Source: Clostridia bacterium
GTDB taxonomy: Bacteria; Bacillota; Clostridia; RGIG6154
Assembly (NCBI GenBank): GCA_017626145.1
Contig: JAGAJK010000057.1
Location: 1-40,323, forward strand
Reading direction: 5' to 3'
DNA: 40,323 nt
The notes under the pieces are model-generated. The model saw only the letters and a program-made list of their open reading frames with translations. It did not search any database and was not told the origin of the DNA. The position numbers and the translations under genes are program-made. Positions 18,162-31,995 of this stretch are shown piece by piece (position 1 is the first letter of the stretch; each line of letters begins with the position of its first letter).

Positions 18162-21100
18162 ATGAAAATGAAAAAGTTATTAAGCGTACTTCTTACAATT
18201 TGTATGATGGTACAAATCCTTCCGATTATATCGGCAGGCGCAACTGAAGTAACTACAGAATCAGCAAGTAATATTAATTACATTATTAACGACACATTTG
18301 ATGATGGCTTTGACGGCTGGCAAAGTGCGTCAATAACTCATGGCGGTGCAAGCTATAACGATAGGCTTACTCTGGATTCAGCTGCACCCCAAAGCGACCC
18401 TGAAGTAACTGTTATGCACTTTGCATCAACAGGTACAGCTTTTTCAAACACATCAAGACCAAATCTTTACTACAACTTTGAAAATCCTGTTGAATTCAGT
18501 GAGAATAAGACGGTTGTTGTAAAAGCAAGAGTTATGTATGAAGGTGGAACTGAAAACTATACAACTGCATACTTAAAGGTGAACAGACCTGTAAGTACAG
18601 CAAGCTATTCAGTATCAGAAATATCGTACAGACCTTATAATGTATTAACAATTACATCATCAGGAGTAGCATCTCCTAAAACAGAGGATAAGTCATTTAA
18701 TTATAATCAACTTATAACAGATACAATAAGTGGCAAGTGGTTAGATATCGAAATGGTATTTGACGGTACCCCTGAAACAAGAAGTATAACTGTTGACGGT
18801 ACAACAAAAACATATACATCACGAGAAGGCTACACACTTTCTGTTAAAACAGATGATATGAGTGAATATGCAACTATGAAAGGCACTCTTGCCAATGGAG
18901 CAGAAGCTTATACTTTGGCAGGACTTGACCCGACTGCTGATGATTTCGCAGGCTTTACATCACTTAACAGCTTAAATTTCGTATTTGATGTTAATGCATC
19001 AGACCTTTATGTTGATTATGTTCAGGTTTATGAAATCAATGTGATTTCAGCAACAGCTTCACTTGAAAATACAAAGGTGTTAAATACAGATGATATTAAC
19101 CTTGTGTTTGAAGCAGAAGGCGAAATTGCAGAAATTCCTGAAGGTGCAGTTGAATTAAAGGATAATGAAGGTGCGGTTGTTGCTGCAACAACAAGCTATG
19201 ATTCAGCAACAAAAACACTTTCAATTAATCCCGAATCAGACCTTAAGGTTGGCGGTAGCTACAAAGTAACTGTAGATGCAGCGGCATTTGAAGACCTTTA
19301 TATTAATTACACAGGCGAAGCAGAATTTGCATTCACAGCAATCGGCGAAGGCGGACTTGTATTAAGAAATACATTTGATGACGGTGACCTTGGTGACTGG
19401 GCTCTTAACCTGGGAACAAACTCGGCAGATAATATTTCATTAACTGCTGATACCACAACAGACGGTTTAGAGGTTATGAAATTAACAAAGGTAGCAAAAA
19501 ACGGATATCATCATAATCAGGTAGGTTACGCATATCTTAAGCTTCCTCAGAGACTTGAATTTGAAGAAGGAAAATCAGTTGTTATTAAAGCAAGAGTAAT
19601 GCAGTCACTTCCCGAAGGTATTACAAGCAACGATGTAGCAATCCTTGCAAATGCTCCTGCGAAAATTACAAATGTAGGTGCCAGAGGTTCAAATGCGTAT
19701 GTTCTTGCATCTGTTACAGCGAGCAGTGTTAACGTTCCTAAGTCAGAAAGCACCCGTGAAGAAACAACAAAAATTATAAAAGAAGTAGATACAAATAACC
19801 AATGGGTTGATTTTGAGATTGTTTTTGACGGCAGTGAATTAACATCAACAATAACAGGTGATGACGGATTTACAATTACACACAGAGACGGTTACAAAGT
19901 AACAGCTAAGATGGGTGAACAGAGTGCAACATCGCCCGTAGCCTCACTTTTCCATAACATAGGTATAACTTCAGAATATCCGGGTGCGGGTATAACCAGA
20001 GGTCAGGGCTATAAGAATGCATATACCGAAGCAGGTTACACTGATTTCACAGCTGAAAATTTCCACAGCTTTGAAGGACTTGACTCACTTGCATTCCTGT
20101 TAAACAGAAATGCAGATAACGTTTACGTTGACTATGTTGAAATCTATGAAAAAGAAATAATTTCTGCAACGGCAGAACTTGAAAAAGCAAAGATATTAAA
20201 TACAGAAGATGTTAAATTAACATTTACAAGTGAAGCTGATATTGATTCAATTCCTGCAGGTGCAGTTACATTAAAGGACAAAGCAGGTAACACAGTTTCA
20301 GCAGCACAGACATTTGATGCAACAACAAAAACACTTACAATTAATCCTGATACTGACCTTAGAGTTGGTGGTATCTATAAAGTAAATGTGGATGCAGCTG
20401 CATTTGATTCAATTTTTGTTACATATACAGGTGAAACAGAATTTACGGTTACTGCAATCGGTGAAAACGGACTTATAATTAACGATACCTTCGATGACGG
20501 TAGCCTCGGCGGATGGTTCGAAGGTGCTTCAACACTTAAGAATAACGGTCAGACAACATTTGGCATTGTTGACGGTGCGATGACGCTTACAACAAGTGCA
20601 AAATCAAATACCAATGGTACATCTCACGCAAATATGCGTTATGAATTTGCAGAGCCATTGGAATTCAAAGATGATTCAAAGATTGTTATTGAAACAAGAG
20701 TTAAATTCAATGATCCCGGTGCAGACAACAAGTGGTTGAGTTACGATATGGCGTCAATGCAGATTAACAGACCTGCTGACTATTCAATTTTTGGCTCAAC
20801 TTATACGGACTGGTATTACTTTAACGCATTCAGAATTAACGGTGGTAAATTGTTAGCTCCTTACTGCACAAGACTTGATTACGATTCAATCAATCTTCAG
20901 CCTGAAGGTTTAGATTCAGCTTACGATAAGTGGATTGATATAAAAATAGTATTCGACGGAACAAAGAGCACACCTGCGGGTTTACATCCTAATGATGTTT
21001 CAACTCGTGAAGGTTACACAATTATAGCTAAGATTGAAGGACAGGAAGAGTCAGTTTCAAGTTGGGCATCACTTTTCCAGAATGGCAAACAGGAAATCTA

Positions 21101-22706
21101 TGATGCGTATAACACTACTACCAAAGATGGTTTTAAATCAATCGAAAGTATTACATTCCCGGTTCTTTTCGCAATCGGCACATATGCGGTTGACTATGTA
21201 AGAGTTTATGAAATTGAATCAGCAGATGCTTACGCAACAATGCCTGCAGGTAACACAGTTAAATATGACGAAGCAATTAAGCTCAATTTCTATGGTGTAC
21301 ATCCTGCAGTAATATTCCCGACAAATGCAGTTACATTAAAAACAGCATCAGGTGCAACTGTTGAAACAGTAAACACATATGATGCCGCAACAGGTATTCT
21401 TTCAGTTAAACCTGTGGCAAACCTTACAAAGGGCGAATATTACAGCGTAAATGTAAATAAGGGTGCCCTTTCTAAAGCTGCTATGAATTATGTAGGCACA
21501 ACATACTTTACAGTAACAGCACGTGACGATTTTGAAACAGCGAAAGTAGTATTAAACGATGACTTTAACGATAACACAACTCAGGGTTGGGTTGCCGGTA
21601 ACGCATTAGATACCTATGGTGCAACAGTTACAGCAGAAGATGGTATGCTTCATGTAACAACAGTTGGTATGGGTTATTCTAAAGGTAGTGAAAGCTCAGT
21701 TACAAAATTACTTGGCGACGGTATCGAACTTACAGAAGGCAAGAAAGTTGTAATTAAAACAAAGGTTAAAAATGTAACAGAAGGTGCAACATGGGTTCTT
21801 AACCTTAACAGACCTGAAGACATTAGTAACTTACCTTCAAACGCAAACCTCTGGAGTGTTTATCAGCTCGTAAGAAATTCAACTACAGATATTACAGTTC
21901 CTGCAAACAAGAGAGAATCACTTCAGGGACCATACAATAACTTTGTATGGAGCCACAGCCTCGGTGAAAAGAGATACAACGAAGAAACCGGCAAGATTGA
22001 AAACCTCGAAACAATTGATACACTTAATAAGTGGGTTGAATACACAATCACAATTACAGACGAAGAAATTAACAACCTCCACGTTAAGGCTGACATTTTA
22101 GACGATAACGGTAATATTGTTGCAACCCATGAATCAGACGAACTTAATGATGCAACAATTAAAACTTCATTTGATGCAGGCGAAAGAGTATTCGGTAAGG
22201 TTCCCGGTTACTCAACAGTTGAAGATGCTGCTGACCCTGAAAAGAAAGCTGTTATGGATAATATGTTTAACAAGTGGTTATCTGCTGACAGACTTACATT
22301 CTCAACAGGTAAATATAATACTCCAATGGAATATTATATCGACTATATTACAGTAGAACAGCTTGATGCAAGAGAAGTTGAAACAACTGCAACAGCTTCA
22401 CTTACAGTAGGTGGTGTTGCAACACAGAACATAGCAGCAGGCGACAGCGTAATCCCGGCATACACACTTCAGGGTAACACAGGAACAGCATTTACAGTAA
22501 TTAGTGCAATGTATGTTGACGGTAAGCTTTCAGGTGCACCACACATCAACACAGTTACTGCAGAAAATTCAGACGAATTTACTTATACAGAAACAGAAGG
22601 CTTTACAGTTCCTTCCGCAGGAAAAGTAGAAATTAAAGCATTCGTTTGGAATGCGCTTGACGGACTTAAGCCAATCGGCGGTGTAGCAAAAGCAGCAAAC
22701 GATTGA
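18162..22706 (+). CDS. Secreted repeat protein: four lectin-like plus Ig-like (Big_5) units, ended by an in-frame UGA
   Basis: A secreted protein of 1514 residues; signal peptide at 1-27 (cleavage near SAGA-TE). Four beta-sandwich modules begin with NDTFDDG-type strands and end with VDYVxVYE (about 35-290, 400-660, 770-1020, 1125-1405); they resemble concanavalin/LamG-type carbohydrate-binding folds. The first three are each followed by a Big_5 (SbsA-type Ig-like) domain of about 100 residues with the repeated pattern VELKD/VTLKD and VxVDAAAF. A last Ig-like domain (about 1406-1510) ends exactly before the stop. The next 685 codons are open in the same frame and code a GH141-like domain, so this is probably the front part of a 2200-codon protein. 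Module 2 is nearly copied in the gene at 25125. Start ATG 18162, ribosome site AAAGGA. Confidence 0.85.
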   Translation: MKMKKLLSVLLTICMMVQILPIISAGATEVTTESASNINYIINDTFDDGFDGWQSASITHGGASYNDRLTLDSAAPQSDPEVTVMHFASTGTAFSNTSRPNLYYNFENPVEFSENKTVVVKARVMYEGGTENYTTAYLKVNRPVSTASYSVSEISYRPYNVLTITSSGVASPKTEDKSFNYNQLITDTISGKWLDIEMVFDGTPETRSITVDGTTKTYTSREGYTLSVKTDDMSEYATMKGTLANGAEAYTLAGLDPTADDFAGFTSLNSLNFVFDVNASDLYVDYVQVYEINVISATASLENTKVLNTDDINLVFEAEGEIAEIPEGAVELKDNEGAVVAATTSYDSATKTLSINPESDLKVGGSYKVTVDAAAFEDLYINYTGEAEFAFTAIGEGGLVLRNTFDDGDLGDWALNLGTNSADNISLTADTTTDGLEVMKLTKVAKNGYHHNQVGYAYLKLPQRLEFEEGKSVVIKARVMQSLPEGITSNDVAILANAPAKITNVGARGSNAYVLASVTASSVNVPKSESTREETTKIIKEVDTNNQWVDFEIVFDGSELTSTITGDDGFTITHRDGYKVTAKMGEQSATSPVASLFHNIGITSEYPGAGITRGQGYKNAYTEAGYTDFTAENFHSFEGLDSLAFLLNRNADNVYVDYVEIYEKEIISATAELEKAKILNTEDVKLTFTSEADIDSIPAGAVTLKDKAGNTVSAAQTFDATTKTLTINPDTDLRVGGIYKVNVDAAAFDSIFVTYTGETEFTVTAIGENGLIINDTFDDGSLGGWFEGASTLKNNGQTTFGIVDGAMTLTTSAKSNTNGTSHANMRYEFAEPLEFKDDSKIVIETRVKFNDPGADNKWLSYDMASMQINRPADYSIFGSTYTDWYYFNAFRINGGKLLAPYCTRLDYDSINLQPEGLDSAYDKWIDIKIVFDGTKSTPAGLHPNDVSTREGYTIIAKIEGQEESVSSWASLFQNGKQEIYDAYNTTTKDGFKSIESITFPVLFAIGTYAVDYVRVYEIESADAYATMPAGNTVKYDEAIKLNFYGVHPAVIFPTNAVTLKTASGATVETVNTYDAATGILSVKPVANLTKGEYYSVNVNKGALSKAAMNYVGTTYFTVTARDDFETAKVVLNDDFNDNTTQGWVAGNALDTYGATVTAEDGMLHVTTVGMGYSKGSESSVTKLLGDGIELTEGKKVVIKTKVKNVTEGATWVLNLNRPEDISNLPSNANLWSVYQLVRNSTTDITVPANKRESLQGPYNNFVWSHSLGEKRYNEETGKIENLETIDTLNKWVEYTITITDEEINNLHVKADILDDNGNIVATHESDELNDATIKTSFDAGERVFGKVPGYSTVEDAADPEKKAVMDNMFNKWLSADRLTFSTGKYNTPMEYYIDYITVEQLDAREVETTATASLTVGGVATQNIAAGDSVIPAYTLQGNTGTAFTVISAMYVDGKLSGAPHINTVTAENSDEFTYTETEGFTVPSAGKVEIKAFVWNALDGLKPIGGVAKAAND
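19371..20138 (+). repeat. Long direct repeat, copy A (lectin-like module)
   Basis: Codes the second lectin-like module of the repeat protein and is highly similar in DNA and protein to 25266-26027, with long identical runs and a two-codon length difference. It indicates recent duplication or gene conversion between the two surface genes. Confidence 0.85.
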
Positions 22707-24764
22707 CTTACTGTGTATGTTCAGGCATACGGCGGCAGTGATGTCGTAGGTACAGGGGAGAAAGACTCCCCTGTAGCTACCCTTTCAAAAGCACTTACGG
22801 TAGCAAAAGAAAAATACAATGCATCACCGGATTCTTACTCCAAAACACAGATTATTGTAGGTGACGGTATTTACGATGCAAAAGGAACAGTTTATGTTAG
22901 TGCATCTAACACCGCATTTGGTGAAGACGGCCTTACAATAAAGGCTGAAAAAGGTACAAATCCAACCTTTGTAGGCGGTACTACTTATAATATAAGCCAG
23001 GCGACAAAGGTAACAGATGAAGCGATTCTTTCAAGACTTCATTCCGATAATGCAAAGCAAAACCTTTATGAACTGGATTTAACAACAAAAATAGCTTTAA
23101 GCAAAATTCCGGCAGTAAACTATCCGGGGGCATACAATTTAAACTCAATGCTTAGTCAGGTTGGACTTGAAAATCCACCCACAAGAACCTGTGAAGCAAT
23201 TTTCGATAACAACCTTATGACTGTAGCAAGATACCCCAACAGCGGTTATGCTTACGCAGGTGAGGTTATTGACGAGGGTATTGAAGCATGCTATATGCTT
23301 GACAGTTATGACGGAACTGAAAATGATCTGGAAGTAACTACAGAAAACCTTTTAAAGGGCTTTGAAATCAAATCAGATTACGAAAACCTTTCAAAATGGG
23401 CAACAGCAGACCAGGCTTTAATTTTCGGTTACTTTATGTACGACTGGGCAACCCAGACAGTTCCTTTAAAGGAAATTAATGCAGAAAACGGTAGCTTACG
23501 TTCAAAATACCCAAGCTATTATGGTATCAAAGAAGGTAAACGGTATTACGTTTATAACCTTCTTGAAGAAATCGACCTTCCGGGTGAATATTTTATAGAC
23601 AGAAAAACAGGCAAAATGTATTTCTATATGCCATCTAATGCAACAGAAACAAGCACAATCAGCATTACAAACAATTCAGGTCCCTTAATGAGTATAAGTG
23701 CGGAAAATGTTACGGTTGACGGTCTTACCTTTACAGGTTCAAAAACAACAGGTGTTTATCTGGGCGGAAATAATAATGTAGTTCAGAATTGTGAAATGTC
23801 AAATACTGCAAGCTGCGGTGTTGACCTGCAGGGTACAAATAACACGGTTGATAACTGTTATATTCACGACACTAATGTTGGTGTTCTGCTTTCGGGCGGT
23901 AACACAAATTCACTTACACCGGGTAATAATAAGGTACAAAACTGCGAAATCACAAGATTTTCAAGAATTCAAAAAACATATTGTGCGGCAGTTGAAATAT
24001 ATGGCGTAGGAAACATTGTAACACACAACGAAATTCACGATGGCGAACATATTGCACTTCGTTATCAGGGATTAAATCATACATTAAGCTATAACGAAAT
24101 TTACGATGTATGTAAAGAGGTTGACGATGCTGGTGCAATCTACGTAGGCAGAAAGTGGACAGACAGAGGAAATAAAATTATTTCTAACTATTTCCACGAT
24201 ATTAATCCCAACATCGATACAACATCAGCAGGACAAAACCCTGTTGCAGGTATATTTTTAGATGACCACTACGCAGGTGCATACATCGAAGGAAACGTGT
24301 TTGCAAATATCTTCGGTGACGGTATCCGTGGTAATGGTGGACGTGAACATACAATTACAAACAACGTATTTATAAACTGTACTTTAAGAGGAACATATAT
24401 GAGAGACTCAAATCCTGACAATGCGTACGAAACACAGGTGAAAGGATTAAGCAAAGTTCCTTACCAAAGTGATGTATGGAAAGAGGCATTTCCCGCTCTT
24501 TACAATATCTTAAATAACAAGCCGACATACCCTGTTGACCATATTTGCACAAACAACTTAGCAGTAAATTGCGGTCAGGCAGGTTATATCTACGGCACCC
24601 TTGCAACAGAGTATGCAACAGATATTTCGAATAATATTACAACAAATGAGGATCCGGGCTTCAAGGATATGGCAAACGGTAACTACACCATTACCGCAGA
24701 AGCCTTGGCAGGCAAGATTACAAACTTTAAAACAATAGAGTTTGAAAAAATGGGAAGACAGTAA
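22704..24764 (+). CDS. GH141-like beta-helix glycosidase domain, in frame behind a UGA codon
   Basis: About 685 codons follow the UGA at 22704-22706 without a frame change. The domain starts at once (LTVYVQAYGGSDVVGTG) and matches the GH141-like part of the protein at 13928 along its length: a Pro-Gly-Ala-Tyr segment, SLRSKYPSYYG, PGEYFIDRKTGKMYFY, KEVDDAGAIYVGR, and IFLDDH with its Asp pair. The only start codon near the front is GTG at 22713, which has no ribosome site and would give a protein without a signal peptide. The simplest readings are UGA read-through, a recent nonsense mutation, or a sequencing error. As an enzyme it would be a surface fucosidase- or xylanase-like hydrolase. It ends at TAA 24762-24764. 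Confidence 0.75.
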
Positions 24765-25124: not shown

Positions 25125-28100
25125 ATGCATAAAAAACTCACAGCACTTTTTTGTGTGTTAACTTTGCTTTTGTCTGTTTTGGTTATGCCTGTGTCAGCAG
25201 AGTCTGCTGTAATCGACTTGGCAGTACAACAAACAGCAAGTGGTATAAATTATATTATAAATGACCAGTTTAATGATGGTGATCTGGGAGACTGGGAGCT
25301 TAATTTAGGAAGTAACTCAGCCGACAAAGTTTCTTTAACTGCCGATACCACAGCAGATGGTTCAAAGGTTATGAAATTAACAAAATTGGCAGCAAACGGA
25401 TATCATCATCAGCAGGTAGGTTATGCGTATCTACCGCTTCCTCAGAGAATTGAATTTGAAGCAGGAAAATATATTGTTATAAAAGCAAGAGTAATGCAGT
25501 CACTTCCAAGTGGCGTTACAAGTAACGATGTAGCAATCCTTGCAAATGCTCCTGCGAAAATTAAAAATGTAGGTGCCAGAGGTACAAATGCGTATGTTCT
25601 TGCATCTGTTACAGCAAGCGATATCAGAGTTCCTAAGTCAGGAAGCCGTGAAAATGCTAATAGAATTATAGAAGCAGATACAAACAACCAATGGGTTGAT
25701 TTTGAGATTGTTTTTGACGGCAGTGAATTAACATCAACAATAACAGGTGATAATGAATTTACAATTACAAACAGAGATGGTTACAAAGTAAATGCAAAGG
25801 TTGGTGAAACCACCGGAACATCACCTGTAACATCACTCTTCCATAATATCGGTATAACTTCAACATATCCGGGTGTGGATATAACCAGAGGTCAGAGCTA
25901 TAAGAATGCATATACCGAAGCGGGTTACACTGATTTCACAGCTGAAAATTTCCACAGCTTTGAAGGACTTGATTCCCTTGCATTTCTGTTAAACAATAAG
26001 GCAGACAACGTTTACGTTGACTATGTTCAAATTTTTGAGGTTGACCCTGAGGTTACGGCGACTGTACCTGTAAATACCGATTACGGTATAATATACAGAC
26101 CCGATGAGCTTTCTTTAGCTTTTAATTTACCAATTGATTATACAGACGGTGGAATTGTTATTTTGGATGAAGCCGGTAATACAATAGATCATATTGGTTC
26201 ATATGACGAAACCACATATACCTATACGGCATCTTTTGATTCAGAGTTGCCAAAAGGAAGCTATAAATTTGTAATTAATGATTTAATAAACCCTCTGCCT
26301 GTCGGAAGTATAGATGGTATGTACTTTGAGAAAAGAGCTATTGATTTTAAAGTGTACGATACTCTGCCACCCAGACTCGAATATTTAACAATCGATGGAT
26401 TGGTGGCAACCGGATGCGTTGTTACAGCTGATTATAACGTTGTTTCGAACTCAGGCACAGATTATAGCTTGGTTTATAAATGGTTGGCTTCCGAAAGCGG
26501 AGAAGAAGGTACCTTTGAAGTGCTTGAAGGCTTTGACGGAGATAGTCTTGATATAACAGAGGCAAATGCTGCCGAAAAATATATAATGTTATCGGTAATC
26601 CCGCAGGCGAGCGGAGTTGAAGGCTTGGAATACTTCAGTAATGTTTTAATACCTGAAACTGCTCCTGTTATAAGCAACTTAAAATTAAGTGCTTCAAACC
26701 TTTACCCGAATACTTATTTAGCACCTTTGTATGATTTCAGCGATATAAATGATGATCTGGAAAAGGGAACAAAAGTTGAATGGTTCACATCTGGCGACGG
26801 TGCTTCAAATTGGCAGAAGGTATCGGAAGATACAAAATATCATATTACAGAAGCAGATTTAGGTCTTTACCTGAAATGCAAGGTAACACCAAAGAGTGAT
26901 TCTTTATACAAATCAACAGGTGCTCCTGTTGAAAGCGAGGTTGCAGGACCTGTTTCAGACATACTTGCAACAACTAATATGTACGTTGACCCAAGCTTTG
27001 AAACAACAAAGATAGGTGAATATTGGCGCTCAAATGCAAAAGACGGTGTATGGAAAGGGGCTTCTATTACTAAAAACGATGCTCGTACAGGACAGTATTC
27101 ACTTCGTGTGCCGCCCCGTGCTTCCGTTCATGATACGTGGGGTCAGCCGAAAAATGTAACTGAAGGAAATGTTTACCTTACCGGATGTTATGCTAAAAAG
27201 GCAAGTGATAAGCTTACCGATACAGGCGGATTGTGGGCATATTGCTCAACAGATACCGGAATAACGCGTTATGATAAGGTTGTGGATGACTATACCGTAA
27301 CAAAAAGATGGCAGCTTTGCGCAGGTACATTCCTGGCGACTGCATCAAGAGACGCCAACTTTGATTTTGTGTCTTTTGAAACTATAGGTACTCTCGATGC
27401 CCTTTTTGATGATATGTATTTAGGCGAGTTATTGGTTGCCGATATCGAAACCTTTGATGTTGGAGATGTTTTAATCCCTCAGTTTGGTGAAACTGCCGTA
27501 ACAATAACAAGCGGTAAAATTTTAAATCAGCTTGGAACAACTCACGGTCTTGTTGATGAAATTATACAGTACGAGCTTCCCGAAAGCGACGGAGTTTATA
27601 TTGATAACGGCAAATTAGTTGTAACAGACAAGGCAAAAGCAGGCAGAGTTAATGTAAGACTTTTTGTTGAACCTCAGTACCCCGGTGCAGACCAGAGCAT
27701 TTTTGAAAAATATGTTACGGTAAATTTAGTTCCAAATAACGATACAACACCAAAGGCATACGATGTAACAGCTGTGGGTGAAGTTGCAGAGGGTAATACA
27801 CTTACAGGTTCATATAAATTCTATCAGATAGAAGATAAAGCTGATGCATCAACAGTTATGTGGACATACTGTGACACCGAAGACGGAACATACAATCCAA
27901 TTCCCGGTGCAAATGCTTTAACTTACACAGTTGAAAGTGCGTATGCAGATAAATACATTAAGTTTGCAGTAGTACCAAAAACGGACGATGGAATGGTTGG
28001 AAATACTGCTTATTCAAACTTCTTAACAATTCCACGAGTTCCTGTTGGAAGCGACGTAAAAATTGACGGTGATTTCAACGTTGGCGGAACAGTTACTGCA

Positions 28101-29306
28101 ACATACACATACTACGACCCTAACGGTGACGAAGAGGGCAATTCTGTATACAGATGGATGATTGCTGACAGTATTGATACTAACTTCAGACCGATATCGG
28201 GACAGACAACCAATACACTTACTTTAACTAATGATATGATTGGTAAATATATTAAGGTGGGTGTAACTCCAATTTCGCAGAATACCCCAAATAACAGCGT
28301 TGAGGTATGGAGCAGTGTTGTTGAAGGTCCTGCAAAGCCTGCTGCTATGCACGTTGCAATTGATAGCAGCAATGGCAGACTTACAGGTCAGTATATCTAT
28401 TCTCACCCACACAATATACCTGAAAAGGGTACAACCTTTAAGTGGACTGTTGACGGAGTTACGGTTTCAGATAAAATTGACTACGTTCCCAATTTTGACG
28501 GAATGAAAACAGTTACATTTACAGTTACACCAAAATCTTCAGGCAACCCTTCAACAGGTAACAGTGTATCAACATCGGTTGTAATAGGTAATGCAGAAAG
28601 CTCCGTTCCCGGTGGCTTCGGCGGTGGCAATTCATCGTCAGGCGGTACCGGTGGCGGCGGTGGTGGCGGCGGTGCTGCCTCAGGTTCGGGCACAGGTATA
28701 ACAAATATCAATGATATGAACCGTGTTGACCCAACAAAAGAACCTGAAAAACAGCCTGAAACAACCAAATCAGACATTGACAGCCATTGGGGTAAGACCT
28801 ACATTGAAGAAATGGAAAAACGTGGTGTTATGAGTGCCGATGAAAACGGTAACTTCAACCCCGATGTAAATGTAACAAGAGAAGCAATGGTAACATTCTT
28901 ATTTGATGCATTAGGTCTTGAAGAAACAGAATATTCAAATCAGTTCGGTGACGTTGCAGACGGCGACTTTGCTAAAAAGCTGCAGACAATGGTTGATAAC
29001 GGCACAATCGCAAAAGACGTAAACTTCAGACCGGATGACACAATTTCTCGTGAAGAAATGTGCAAAATCCTTTATGTATCCCTTAAAAATGCAGGCAAGC
29101 TTGCAGAAGTGGAAGATGGTTTGATTAATACTTTTGCAGACTTTGACAACATTTCCGAATGGGCAAGAGTATATGTAAATGCAATTTACGGAAATAAAAT
29201 TATGGTTGGTGTGTCCGATACTGAATTTGATGCTAAAGGAACAGTAACCAAAGCACAGGCAGCTACAATGCTTGTAAGAATTCTTAATTTAACGGAGGTG
29301 GAATAA
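25125..29306 (+). CDS. SLH-anchored multidomain surface protein (lectin-like, Ig-like, CBM-like domains)
   Basis: A secreted protein of 1393 residues. Signal peptide 1-25 (VSAES). Residues about 38-305: a lectin-like module nearly identical to module 2 of the protein at 18162. About 306-410: Big_5 domain. About 411-615: two Ig-like repeats (YKWLAS, VEWFTSGDG). About 618-775: a CBM4/9-like jelly roll beginning NMYVDPSFETT. About 880-1160: three more Ig-like repeats (VMWTYCDTEDGTY, YRWMIADS, FKWTVDG). About 1160-1190: a Gly/Ser linker. About 1215-1393: three SLH domains (ITRE/VTRE-type motifs) that bind pyruvylated cell-wall polymer. No catalytic domain is seen, so it is a glycan-binding scaffold or adhesin held on the wall. 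Ribosome site AAAGGAGG. Confidence 0.9.
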   Translation: MHKKLTALFCVLTLLLSVLVMPVSAESAVIDLAVQQTASGINYIINDQFNDGDLGDWELNLGSNSADKVSLTADTTADGSKVMKLTKLAANGYHHQQVGYAYLPLPQRIEFEAGKYIVIKARVMQSLPSGVTSNDVAILANAPAKIKNVGARGTNAYVLASVTASDIRVPKSGSRENANRIIEADTNNQWVDFEIVFDGSELTSTITGDNEFTITNRDGYKVNAKVGETTGTSPVTSLFHNIGITSTYPGVDITRGQSYKNAYTEAGYTDFTAENFHSFEGLDSLAFLLNNKADNVYVDYVQIFEVDPEVTATVPVNTDYGIIYRPDELSLAFNLPIDYTDGGIVILDEAGNTIDHIGSYDETTYTYTASFDSELPKGSYKFVINDLINPLPVGSIDGMYFEKRAIDFKVYDTLPPRLEYLTIDGLVATGCVVTADYNVVSNSGTDYSLVYKWLASESGEEGTFEVLEGFDGDSLDITEANAAEKYIMLSVIPQASGVEGLEYFSNVLIPETAPVISNLKLSASNLYPNTYLAPLYDFSDINDDLEKGTKVEWFTSGDGASNWQKVSEDTKYHITEADLGLYLKCKVTPKSDSLYKSTGAPVESEVAGPVSDILATTNMYVDPSFETTKIGEYWRSNAKDGVWKGASITKNDARTGQYSLRVPPRASVHDTWGQPKNVTEGNVYLTGCYAKKASDKLTDTGGLWAYCSTDTGITRYDKVVDDYTVTKRWQLCAGTFLATASRDANFDFVSFETIGTLDALFDDMYLGELLVADIETFDVGDVLIPQFGETAVTITSGKILNQLGTTHGLVDEIIQYELPESDGVYIDNGKLVVTDKAKAGRVNVRLFVEPQYPGADQSIFEKYVTVNLVPNNDTTPKAYDVTAVGEVAEGNTLTGSYKFYQIEDKADASTVMWTYCDTEDGTYNPIPGANALTYTVESAYADKYIKFAVVPKTDDGMVGNTAYSNFLTIPRVPVGSDVKIDGDFNVGGTVTATYTYYDPNGDEEGNSVYRWMIADSIDTNFRPISGQTTNTLTLTNDMIGKYIKVGVTPISQNTPNNSVEVWSSVVEGPAKPAAMHVAIDSSNGRLTGQYIYSHPHNIPEKGTTFKWTVDGVTVSDKIDYVPNFDGMKTVTFTVTPKSSGNPSTGNSVSTSVVIGNAESSVPGGFGGGNSSSGGTGGGGGGGGAASGSGTGITNINDMNRVDPTKEPEKQPETTKSDIDSHWGKTYIEEMEKRGVMSADENGNFNPDVNVTREAMVTFLFDALGLEETEYSNQFGDVADGDFAKKLQTMVDNGTIAKDVNFRPDDTISREEMCKILYVSLKNAGKLAEVEDGLINTFADFDNISEWARVYVNAIYGNKIMVGVSDTEFDAKGTVTKAQAATMLVRILNLTEVE
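25266..26027 (+). repeat. Long direct repeat, copy B (lectin-like module)
   Basis: Copy of 19371-20138. It codes the first module of the SLH-anchored protein. Confidence 0.85.
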
Positions 29307-29307
29307 C

Positions 29308-31995
29308 ATGAAAAAGATTATATGCTTAATTCTTTCGATTATTCTTGTTATGTCCTCGGTATCCGTTTTTGCAAGAGAATACTATTCCGGCTACGACTAC
29401 ATGGATGATATATTTGAGTTCGATGTAGGGGATTTCGTTGCAGGTGAAGAAACAGTTGATGGCGGAATTGATGAGGATACAAAGCTTATGATGTTTCTTG
29501 AAACATTAGGGCTTTGGGACGACTCTTCAATTTCCAAGAACGAGCTTGTTTCAATGCAGGAATTTTCAAAAATTCTTTCAAAGGTAAGACTGGGAACAGA
29601 TAACGCATTTGCTCCTGTCTACGACCTTAACCCCACAGAGGAATACGCAACGTATAACCACGCCTATACATACCTTGTTGAAGCTTTGGGTTATTCATAT
29701 AAGTGCGGTCAGTACCCAAATGCCGAGGATGCGAACATTATAGTTGCCGCAGAAATCGGTCTTCTTTCGGAAAGACCCGAAAGTGTTGATGCATACATTA
29801 CCCGTGGCGAACTTGCTAAGCTTATATACAAGGCGATGAACATAGATTTATGTGTTGTTGAGTATCCCGATGAGGGCGGTTACAGATATTCTGTAATTGA
29901 CGGAAAAACTCTTCTTAATTCCGTTCACGGTATATATGTTATAGAGGGCTTTGTTAACGGTATCCCCGGACTTAACGTTTACGGTTCTGACAAGGTTCGT
30001 GACGGATATATTGAAATTGACAGACGAGAAATCAAAAACGGCGGAATTGATACAGCAAAGTATTTCGCATCCCGTGTTCAGGCATACACAAAGTATGACG
30101 AAACCTTAGACCAATATACTTTAATTGCTATTGATTTTGATGATGATATCGAAAACTTTGAAGTTAATTTCAGGGACTTATCTTATGTAAATAACAACGA
30201 GATTGGATATCTTGATGAAACAGGAAACGAAGAAATTTACAACATTTCAAATCTTCGCTATGTAATTGAAAACGGTGAAGCACTTGAATCTATTACCGAT
30301 ATTTGTGATTTTAACAAATATGAAGGCTCTGTTCGTTTCACTTCATCAACCAATTCAGGTGAAATCGACACAGCTGTTATTTACAAATACAATTACTATG
30401 TTGTAAATAACGTTGATACACGTCTTCACAGAATTGTACTTCGTTACAACAGAAAGTATGAAGGAAGCTCCTTTATCCAGCTTGACGATAAAGCAACTAT
30501 GGATATTTATATTGACGGTGTTAAATCGGATTATTCACAGCTTGTTTCAGGCAGCATCATTAAATTCTTTATGTGCCCTGCAACCGGTTATGTGTATATT
30601 GATGCCAAAAGCATGAATCAGGTTAACGGACAGCCGGAAATGCTTTATGACGATGTTGTTGCTTTTGGTGACAATGAATATATAATTGCCCGTGACTGGT
30701 CAACCTTTGTTCAGGAAAATAAGGACAACACTTCAATTATATCTTCACAAAGACCAAAAGAGCTTGAAATAGGAGCTAACACAACATTTTATATAATTGA
30801 CAATGTTATTGCGGCATACACATCAAGTCAGTCATATAAGTACGGCTATATCAAGAGTGTGGCAAAGTCAAGAACAAGTCTTGACCCTGTGCTTACTTTC
30901 AGAATGTTCACCCAGGATGGAGAATGGGTCGATTTCACAATGGATAAGAATGTGGAATTTGAGGGTGAAGCGAATGTAAGTAAGGAAACTGTTATGGAAG
31001 CAATTAACAGCGGTGAAGAAAGATTGGCTCATTTCTTTGACCATCCTGTAAGATTCCGTGCAAATGCCGATAACGAGCTTCTGGCACTTGACACCATTTA
31101 TGAATCTCGGTATGAAGTTAATACAGATGATGATATTGTATTTACTCAGTACTGCGGTATGGCACGAGACTGGACATATGAAGGTGTAGGAAGAGACAAC
31201 CCATTCTTTATGTCAGAAAGCACAGTTATCTTTGTTGCTCCTGACGGAAGCGATGATGAAAGTGAGTTTAAGATAATTACCAATACTCAGATGCCATCTG
31301 CAAGCGGTTCAATTCTTGTACCTACTAAAATATATAACTTAAATGATTATTGCCAGATTTCACTTATGGTTATGACAAGAAGCTTGAATTCTTCTTCAAG
31401 TGCTGGAAAGGGTTACTACTATGTAGAAAAAATTTCTAAGGCTGTTATAAATGCTGAAGATCAGATTTATGGTTACAAGGTATCCGGCAAGCAGTTTGTA
31501 GGTGTTTCAAGAGGTAACGGTGTATTAAAAGACTTCTACTTCTACGCCGACGAAAAAATGATGAACAAAAACGAAATTGAGCCGGGAGAAGAAGGATATG
31601 ACGAAGTAACATATAAAAATAATGTCTTAGAAGTGGGAGACTTTATAAGTGCAGTAGTTTCAGGTACTGACGTAGCTTCATGGGATATGCAGTTAAAGGG
31701 CGGAGTTGTTCCCGAACCTACACCTGCCGATGATGGTGTATCGGACAAAAACAACACAAGCACAGATTCATACATTGCAACAGGTAAATTTGTTCGTGCA
31801 GATGCAGCAACAGGCGTATGGGTTGCTAACGTAGACGGAGTTAATATGCCTGTTATTCCTACAGTTAAAGTTATTATTAATCCAAATACAAAAGAGCTTA
31901 TTTCAGCTACTGTTTCAGACTTTATCGAAGGCGATAATGTATATTATAACTGGCAGTACGGACGAGGCTCATTCTTCATAAAGAACGAATATTAA
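29308..31995 (+). CDS. Secreted SLH-like partner protein of unknown function
   Basis: A protein of 895 residues with signal peptide 1-22 (VSVFA). Residues about 55-190 look like two or three degenerate SLH repeats (ELVSMQEFSKIL, YITRGELAKLIYKAM), placed N-terminally instead of C-terminally as in the neighbour. The remaining 700 residues are beta-rich with many Asp, Tyr and Asn and contain no motif I recognise. The gene starts 1 base after the previous stop, with the ribosome site inside the end of the SLH adhesin gene, so the two are translationally linked and probably made in matched amounts. A 240-base fragment of a paralogue lies at 33173-33442. Suggested role: S-layer or wall partner of the adhesin (inference). 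Confidence 0.8.
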   Translation: MKKIICLILSIILVMSSVSVFAREYYSGYDYMDDIFEFDVGDFVAGEETVDGGIDEDTKLMMFLETLGLWDDSSISKNELVSMQEFSKILSKVRLGTDNAFAPVYDLNPTEEYATYNHAYTYLVEALGYSYKCGQYPNAEDANIIVAAEIGLLSERPESVDAYITRGELAKLIYKAMNIDLCVVEYPDEGGYRYSVIDGKTLLNSVHGIYVIEGFVNGIPGLNVYGSDKVRDGYIEIDRREIKNGGIDTAKYFASRVQAYTKYDETLDQYTLIAIDFDDDIENFEVNFRDLSYVNNNEIGYLDETGNEEIYNISNLRYVIENGEALESITDICDFNKYEGSVRFTSSTNSGEIDTAVIYKYNYYVVNNVDTRLHRIVLRYNRKYEGSSFIQLDDKATMDIYIDGVKSDYSQLVSGSIIKFFMCPATGYVYIDAKSMNQVNGQPEMLYDDVVAFGDNEYIIARDWSTFVQENKDNTSIISSQRPKELEIGANTTFYIIDNVIAAYTSSQSYKYGYIKSVAKSRTSLDPVLTFRMFTQDGEWVDFTMDKNVEFEGEANVSKETVMEAINSGEERLAHFFDHPVRFRANADNELLALDTIYESRYEVNTDDDIVFTQYCGMARDWTYEGVGRDNPFFMSESTVIFVAPDGSDDESEFKIITNTQMPSASGSILVPTKIYNLNDYCQISLMVMTRSLNSSSSAGKGYYYVEKISKAVINAEDQIYGYKVSGKQFVGVSRGNGVLKDFYFYADEKMMNKNEIEPGEEGYDEVTYKNNVLEVGDFISAVVSGTDVASWDMQLKGGVVPEPTPADDGVSDKNNTSTDSYIATGKFVRADAATGVWVANVDGVNMPVIPTVKVIINPNTKELISATVSDFIEGDNVYYNWQYGRGSFFIKNEY

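Follow-up and report, generated by a model that had tools for sequence, protein, structure and literature searches.

The window, i.e., the whole 40,323-nucleotide stretch of DNA that was analysed, is contig 29 of a metagenome-type genome assembly of a Clostridia bacterium (2.78 Mb in 98 contigs, 95% complete). It carries a reading frame of 2201 codons (18162–24764, + strand) which contains a single internal stop, the triplet TGA, with C as the +4 base (Table 1). The 1514 codons in front of this stop specify a surface-protein scaffold, whose Ig-like domains match Big_5 in Pfam (E 4e-14) and whose C-terminal Ig-like module closes with ...KAFVWNALDGLKPIGGVAKAAND directly at the UGA; across the UGA, the scaffold is joined in frame to an enzyme domain of GH141 fold that starts without any linker. 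The Ig-like module type preceding the UGA is found as the natural C-terminal end of proteins in other genomes, where it is followed by ordinary stops. The original prediction of a UGA-C that separates an in-frame scaffold, complete up to its last Ig-like domain, from a GH141-like enzyme is, hence, borne out, and all of its coordinates are right.

For the post-UGA domain, an AlphaFold model with a pLDDT of 89.7 was obtained, in which the predicted first β-strand comprises residues 2–5 after the UGA. The domain gives a Beta_helix match in Pfam, and a profile match towards GH141 has E 3e-4 over a short stretch. Its closest fold in the PDB is that of BT_1002 (5mqp; E 6e-19, TM 0.56–0.63), which we take to be the founding GH141 enzyme; however, sequence identity is 14% and BT_1002 is not linked to any scaffold across a stop codon. 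Neither a signal peptide nor a Shine–Dalgarno (SD) site was found for the downstream half, as had been stated originally, and the GTG at position 22713 is the sole early start-like codon in the window copy.

Table 1. Features of the scaffold–enzyme locus and its neighbourhood in the window.
Feature	Position	Strand	Remarks
SASA-type esterase with beta-helix	13886..17989	+	upstream neighbour; a counterpart also precedes the contig 52 copy
Scaffold ORF	18162..22703	+	signal peptide; repeated binding-type modules alternating with Big_5 Ig-like domains; from ORF and translation
Near-invariant element	22702..22777	+	75/76 nt equal between contigs 29 and 8; synonymous divergence elsewhere ~0.6
In-frame UGA	22704..22706	+	+4 C; kept in the contig 8 and contig 52 paralogues, sense ACA on contig 82
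GH141-fold right-handed beta-helix domain	22707..24761	+	no signal peptide; from AlphaFold, fold match, Beta_helix Pfam and pN/pS
Hairpin 1, GUAUGU-UCAG-GCAUAC	22715..22730	+	8 nt after the stop; conserved with contig 8
Hairpin 2, TACAGGGGAG-AAAGA-CTCCCCTGTA (also given as UACAGGGGAG-AAAGA-CUCCCCUGUA)	22751..22775	+	
SLH-type gene	25125..29306	+	downstream neighbour; S-layer homology (SLH) domains and scaffold-type N-terminal module
895-aa protein	29308..31995	+	no Pfam match; counterparts of similar length (875–902 aa) beside the SLH-type gene in all four clusters

Four scaffold–enzyme genes are present in the genome, one in each of four duplicated surface-enzyme clusters (contigs 29, 8, 52 and 82), which share the order scaffold–GH141 gene, SLH-type gene and ~890-aa protein, suggesting the expansion of a polysaccharide-degrading surface system. 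The gene following the scaffold–enzyme gene is SLH-bearing or of similar size (~1360–1390 codons) in all four cases, with SLH domains being found in the three clusters other than that on contig 82. Compared with the window copy, the enzyme parts are 71% (contig 8), 43% (contig 82) and 37% (contig 52) identical. UGA-C occurs at the same scaffold/enzyme boundary in three of the four paralogues, with the junctions ...AACGAT TGA CTTACT... in the window, ...AACCAT TGA CTTACT... on contig 8 and ...TTTCAT TGA CTGAAC... on contig 52, and the frames behind it are open for 685, 698 and 715 codons in the three UGA copies. The contig 82 paralogue has a sense codon (ACA, threonine) at this site and forms one uninterrupted frame of 2534 codons. 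The alignment of homologues over the junction, which the original prediction had proposed as a check, thus yields two diverged paralogues that keep the UGA and one that is continuous. In a tree of the enzyme domains, the contig 52 copy is placed outside a group of contig 82 and contigs 29/8 (98/97 support), so that two changes are required at the site: either an ancestral UGA disappeared from the contig 82 copy, or the UGA was gained twice. The shared context and structure favour an ancestral UGA.

When the contig 29 and contig 8 copies are compared, pN is 0.19 on either side of the UGA, with a pS of 0.56 for the upstream and 0.60 for the downstream part, so that pN/pS is ~0.3 in both; judged from these values, the enzyme frames are under purifying selection, and evolution of the post-UGA frame is that of a protein, at the pace of the scaffold. 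That three diverged paralogues carry UGA-C at one and the same boundary makes both a fresh nonsense mutation and a sequencing error—the “dull alternative” considered at the outset—very unlikely as the origin of the stop, which is found at three separate loci in front of long open, selected frames. In the same comparison, conservation along the whole gene peaks in a 79-nt DNA segment (97.5% identity) that starts 2 nt upstream of the UGA, and a run of 24 codons with identical residues and without any synonymous change extends from the junction on, the next-longest run anywhere being 12; hence, a nucleotide-level element overlaps the code at the junction. The identity of its 76 nt between contigs 29 and 8 could partly stem from short gene conversion.

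With regard to RNA structure, the small hairpin noticed initially (hairpin 1) does exist 8 nt past the stop; however, as the whole RNA signal it falls short, given that the decisive structure extends over ~75 nt and that the far stronger hairpin 2 had been missed. Starting at the UGA, 82 nt of the window copy have a folding energy of −40.9 kcal/mol, corresponding to a z of −5.9 versus dinucleotide shuffles; by the same procedure, z is −4.7 for the contig 8 copy, −2.7 to −3.8 for that on contig 52 and −5.4 for that on contig 82. In all four genes, no other 75-nt stretch is as stable as the post-UGA RNA, and synonymous recodings as stable as the native sequence were not obtained among 2000 for each of the three UGA genes (0/2000) and were obtained twice for contig 82 (2/2000). 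In seven other GH141 genes of the genome, which have no scaffold junction, the equivalent place shows no such structure (z −1.2 to +0.4); the fold therefore does not belong to the enzyme family as such. Elsewhere in the window, folding is strongest at 28611, in a glycine-rich low-complexity stretch with a z of −1.2. A dispersed repeat or mobile hairpin was discarded as an explanation, the element being present only twice in the genome.

Relative to contigs 29 and 8, the structure on contig 52 is a different fold at the same position. On contig 82, hairpin 2 retains the same 10 pairs, one of them changed on both sides (A-U to C-G) and another from A-U to G-U; this covariation concerns three sequences only, is statistically not above shuffles and is no more than suggestive. 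The contig 82 hairpin itself (GCTACGGGGGCG-GCTAA-CGCCCCTGTAGC, minus strand) is situated inside the continuous frame and ranks in the top two by stability among the in-frame perfect hairpins of the 1.7 Mb scanned. As no UGA is present there, this hairpin may be a relic or have another role.

A control for the peculiarity of the arrangement is provided by the pairs of coding frames that lie in the same frame across one stop; these were listed in 1.71 Mb (61%) of the genome, while the search for family members covered the whole genome. In nearly all of these pairs, the stop is directly followed by a start codon with an SD site, or stop and start overlap, and the clear start-less and SD-less pairs in this 61% are exactly the genes of the window, contig 8 and contig 52, all with TGAC. 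A further TGAC pair on contig 50 (216 + 136 codons) was set aside as a probable antisense shadow. Stop–start coupling being common in this genome, and the window and contig 8 copies having a GTG in frame 6 nt behind the UGA, the locus could be read as two cistrons, with termination at the UGA and re-initiation at GTG 22713 releasing a separate enzyme. We regard this as improbable: near the UGA of the contig 52 copy, ATG, GTG and TTG are all absent from the frame (the first ATG is codon 55), an SD site is lacking, and the GTG sits in strong structure. According to the model, a start at this codon would, moreover, cut into the first β-strand, and the product would be a cytoplasmic enzyme without signal peptide in a cluster of secreted proteins.

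A neutral or fossil stop, in which a nonsense change was spread by duplication and the enzyme half is no longer made, would be in line with the copies being paralogues in one genome, with the uninterrupted state of the fused scaffold–enzyme relatives in other genomes, and with the finding that in-frame stops in prokaryotic genes are frequent and mostly short-lived (PMC7918605). Yet, the downstream halves have remained open at 71% and 37% protein identity, with a pN/pS of ~0.3 for the closer pair, and a decaying tail would not retain a structured and synonymously frozen element. Furthermore, UGA-C has been kept in a genome that uses TAA most often as its stop; among the stops of 968 long frames, TGA accounts for 198 and TGAC for 15. 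This explanation is, on balance, very improbable.

We give hardly any credence to a third possibility, namely that the structure is a processing or stabilising hairpin at the 3′ end of the scaffold mRNA and that read-through is absent or incidental. A strong hairpin directly after a stop, as well as the occurrence of hairpin 2 without UGA on contig 82, could be accommodated in this way, but the location of the latter inside a continuous coding frame speaks against it, and the coding, selected and start-less post-UGA frame would be left unexplained. The hairpin is not an intrinsic terminator, since no U-run follows it, and it is absent from the terminator scan.

Bacterial selenoprotein genes with their SECIS elements resemble the present genes in having an in-frame UGA and, at roughly the same distance, a hairpin immediately downstream which overlaps the coding sequence; nevertheless, selenocysteine insertion is scarcely credible here, given that neither SelB (best match, a 407-aa frame of EF-Tu size) nor tRNA-Sec (best candidates, ordinary tRNAs) was found over the cut-off in the genome—a small doubt stemming from the 95% completeness of the assembly—and that the contig 82 paralogue has threonine at this position. 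In the present genes, the UGA is, moreover, located at a domain boundary and not in an active site. Other decoding-based explanations were tried and rejected. The closing of 198 of the 968 long frames by TGA identifies UGA as a genuine stop in this genome, and its reassignment (codes 4 or 25) is at odds with TGA being a common terminator, with the presence of RF2 and with the lack of a UCA-anticodon tRNA in the 61% searched. An unusual tRNA-Trp with a 4-bp anticodon stem, an idea taken from PMC13092985, does not apply, as the tRNA-Trp of this genome has the ordinary CCA anticodon and a 5-bp anticodon stem. Stop-hopping was likewise dismissed, the codons flanking the UGA being different (GAU/CAU before, CUU/CUG after).

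Taken by itself, a programmed read-through of the UGA in this duplicated family of bacterial surface proteins—with 3′ RNA structure as the stimulus and much scaffold plus some scaffold–enzyme as the outcome—is, in our estimation, highly probable. The originally proposed formation of two products, scaffold and scaffold carrying the enzyme, is supported by the conserved UGA-C, the structure and the selection on the enzyme frame. Features by which programmed read-through is recognised are found in combination, i.e., an open second ORF under selection, a stop conserved in three of four paralogues of one genome, and a weak context together with cis RNA. That read-through occurs, how efficient it is, which residue is inserted and what purpose the product ratio serves, we infer from sequence.

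Mechanistically, most ribosomes would stop at the UGA, whereby the secreted scaffold is released. With a weak UGA-C and a stable structure close behind it, RF2 may lose some of its contests to a near-cognate tRNA, so that a fraction of ribosomes, helped by the folded RNA immediately 3′, would insert an amino acid at the UGA-C and continue to a scaffold carrying the GH141-type enzyme; translation would thereby determine how much binding scaffold is made relative to enzyme-bearing scaffold. The weakness of UGAC as a stop signal is documented for prfB (PMC12421855). The residue inserted is most likely tryptophan, because it is mostly this amino acid that is inserted at a read-through UGA in E. 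coli (PMC11126739).

Among known systems, the autoregulatory UGA-C of prfB, the RF2 gene, also uses weak termination as a switch; unlike the present case, however, it works by a +1 frameshift with an internal SD site and not by in-frame read-through. Programmed read-through is textbook knowledge for viruses and, by now, for animals. In alphaviruses and several plant viruses, UGA-C plus a 3′ stem-loop stimulates read-through, and a 2011 study is said to have dealt with extended 3′ structures in this process. Shared with the viral cases are the UGA-C, the start of an RNA structure within ~10 nt and a second ORF in the same frame; different is that viral genes are translated on eukaryotic ribosomes, whereas here a bacterial chromosomal gene family for cell-surface proteins is concerned. 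UGA read-through with 3′ stem-loops in Drosophila (PMC13170385) is similar in combining a conserved in-frame extension past the stop with cis RNA structure, but concerns animal genes and ribosomes.

All UGA copies, and the evidence for them, come from this one metagenome-type assembled genome. UGA-split members were found neither in 391 genomes of the class nor in IMG/VR, nor among the best GTDB loci (79 loci, with the upstream sequence inspected in 27); of three weak matches with an inner TGA, two turned out to be ordinary C-termini of proteins, and the third was a frame that has a stop right where the match begins. The literature found describes read-through in viruses, animals and reporters, and within the limited literature searched, which included few subscription journals, no description was encountered of an ordinary chromosomal gene in bacteria with conserved in-frame read-through that is stimulated by structure.

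Beyond the molecular event, it seems reasonably probable that UGA read-through stimulated by RNA structure, independent of selenocysteine machinery, constitutes a heritable switch in this multi-copy surface family, by which bare and enzyme-bearing scaffold would be made from one mRNA and which would have arisen once before the duplications and been lost in one copy. If so, bacteria would possess a translational means to set the ratio of binding to catalytic surface proteins, and the 76-nt sequence would be a compact bacterial element on which the defeat of RF2 by 3′ RNA structure could be studied. Annotation pipelines will call such genes broken or divide them in two.

A separate observation concerns the release factor gene of the same organism. 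In the assembly, the RF2 frameshift site of prfB (contig 14, near 39008) reads CTTTAGC and thus contains the RF1-specific UAG instead of UGA, while CTTTGAC is present at this site in the four same-family relatives examined. According to a survey from 2025, UAG occurs at the prfB site in none of 8,164 genomes (PMC12421855). With an RF1-specific stop at this position, RF2 would be regulated by the activity of RF1. TAGC at the prfB motif is also found in three more genomes of the class (G361, G130 and G031).
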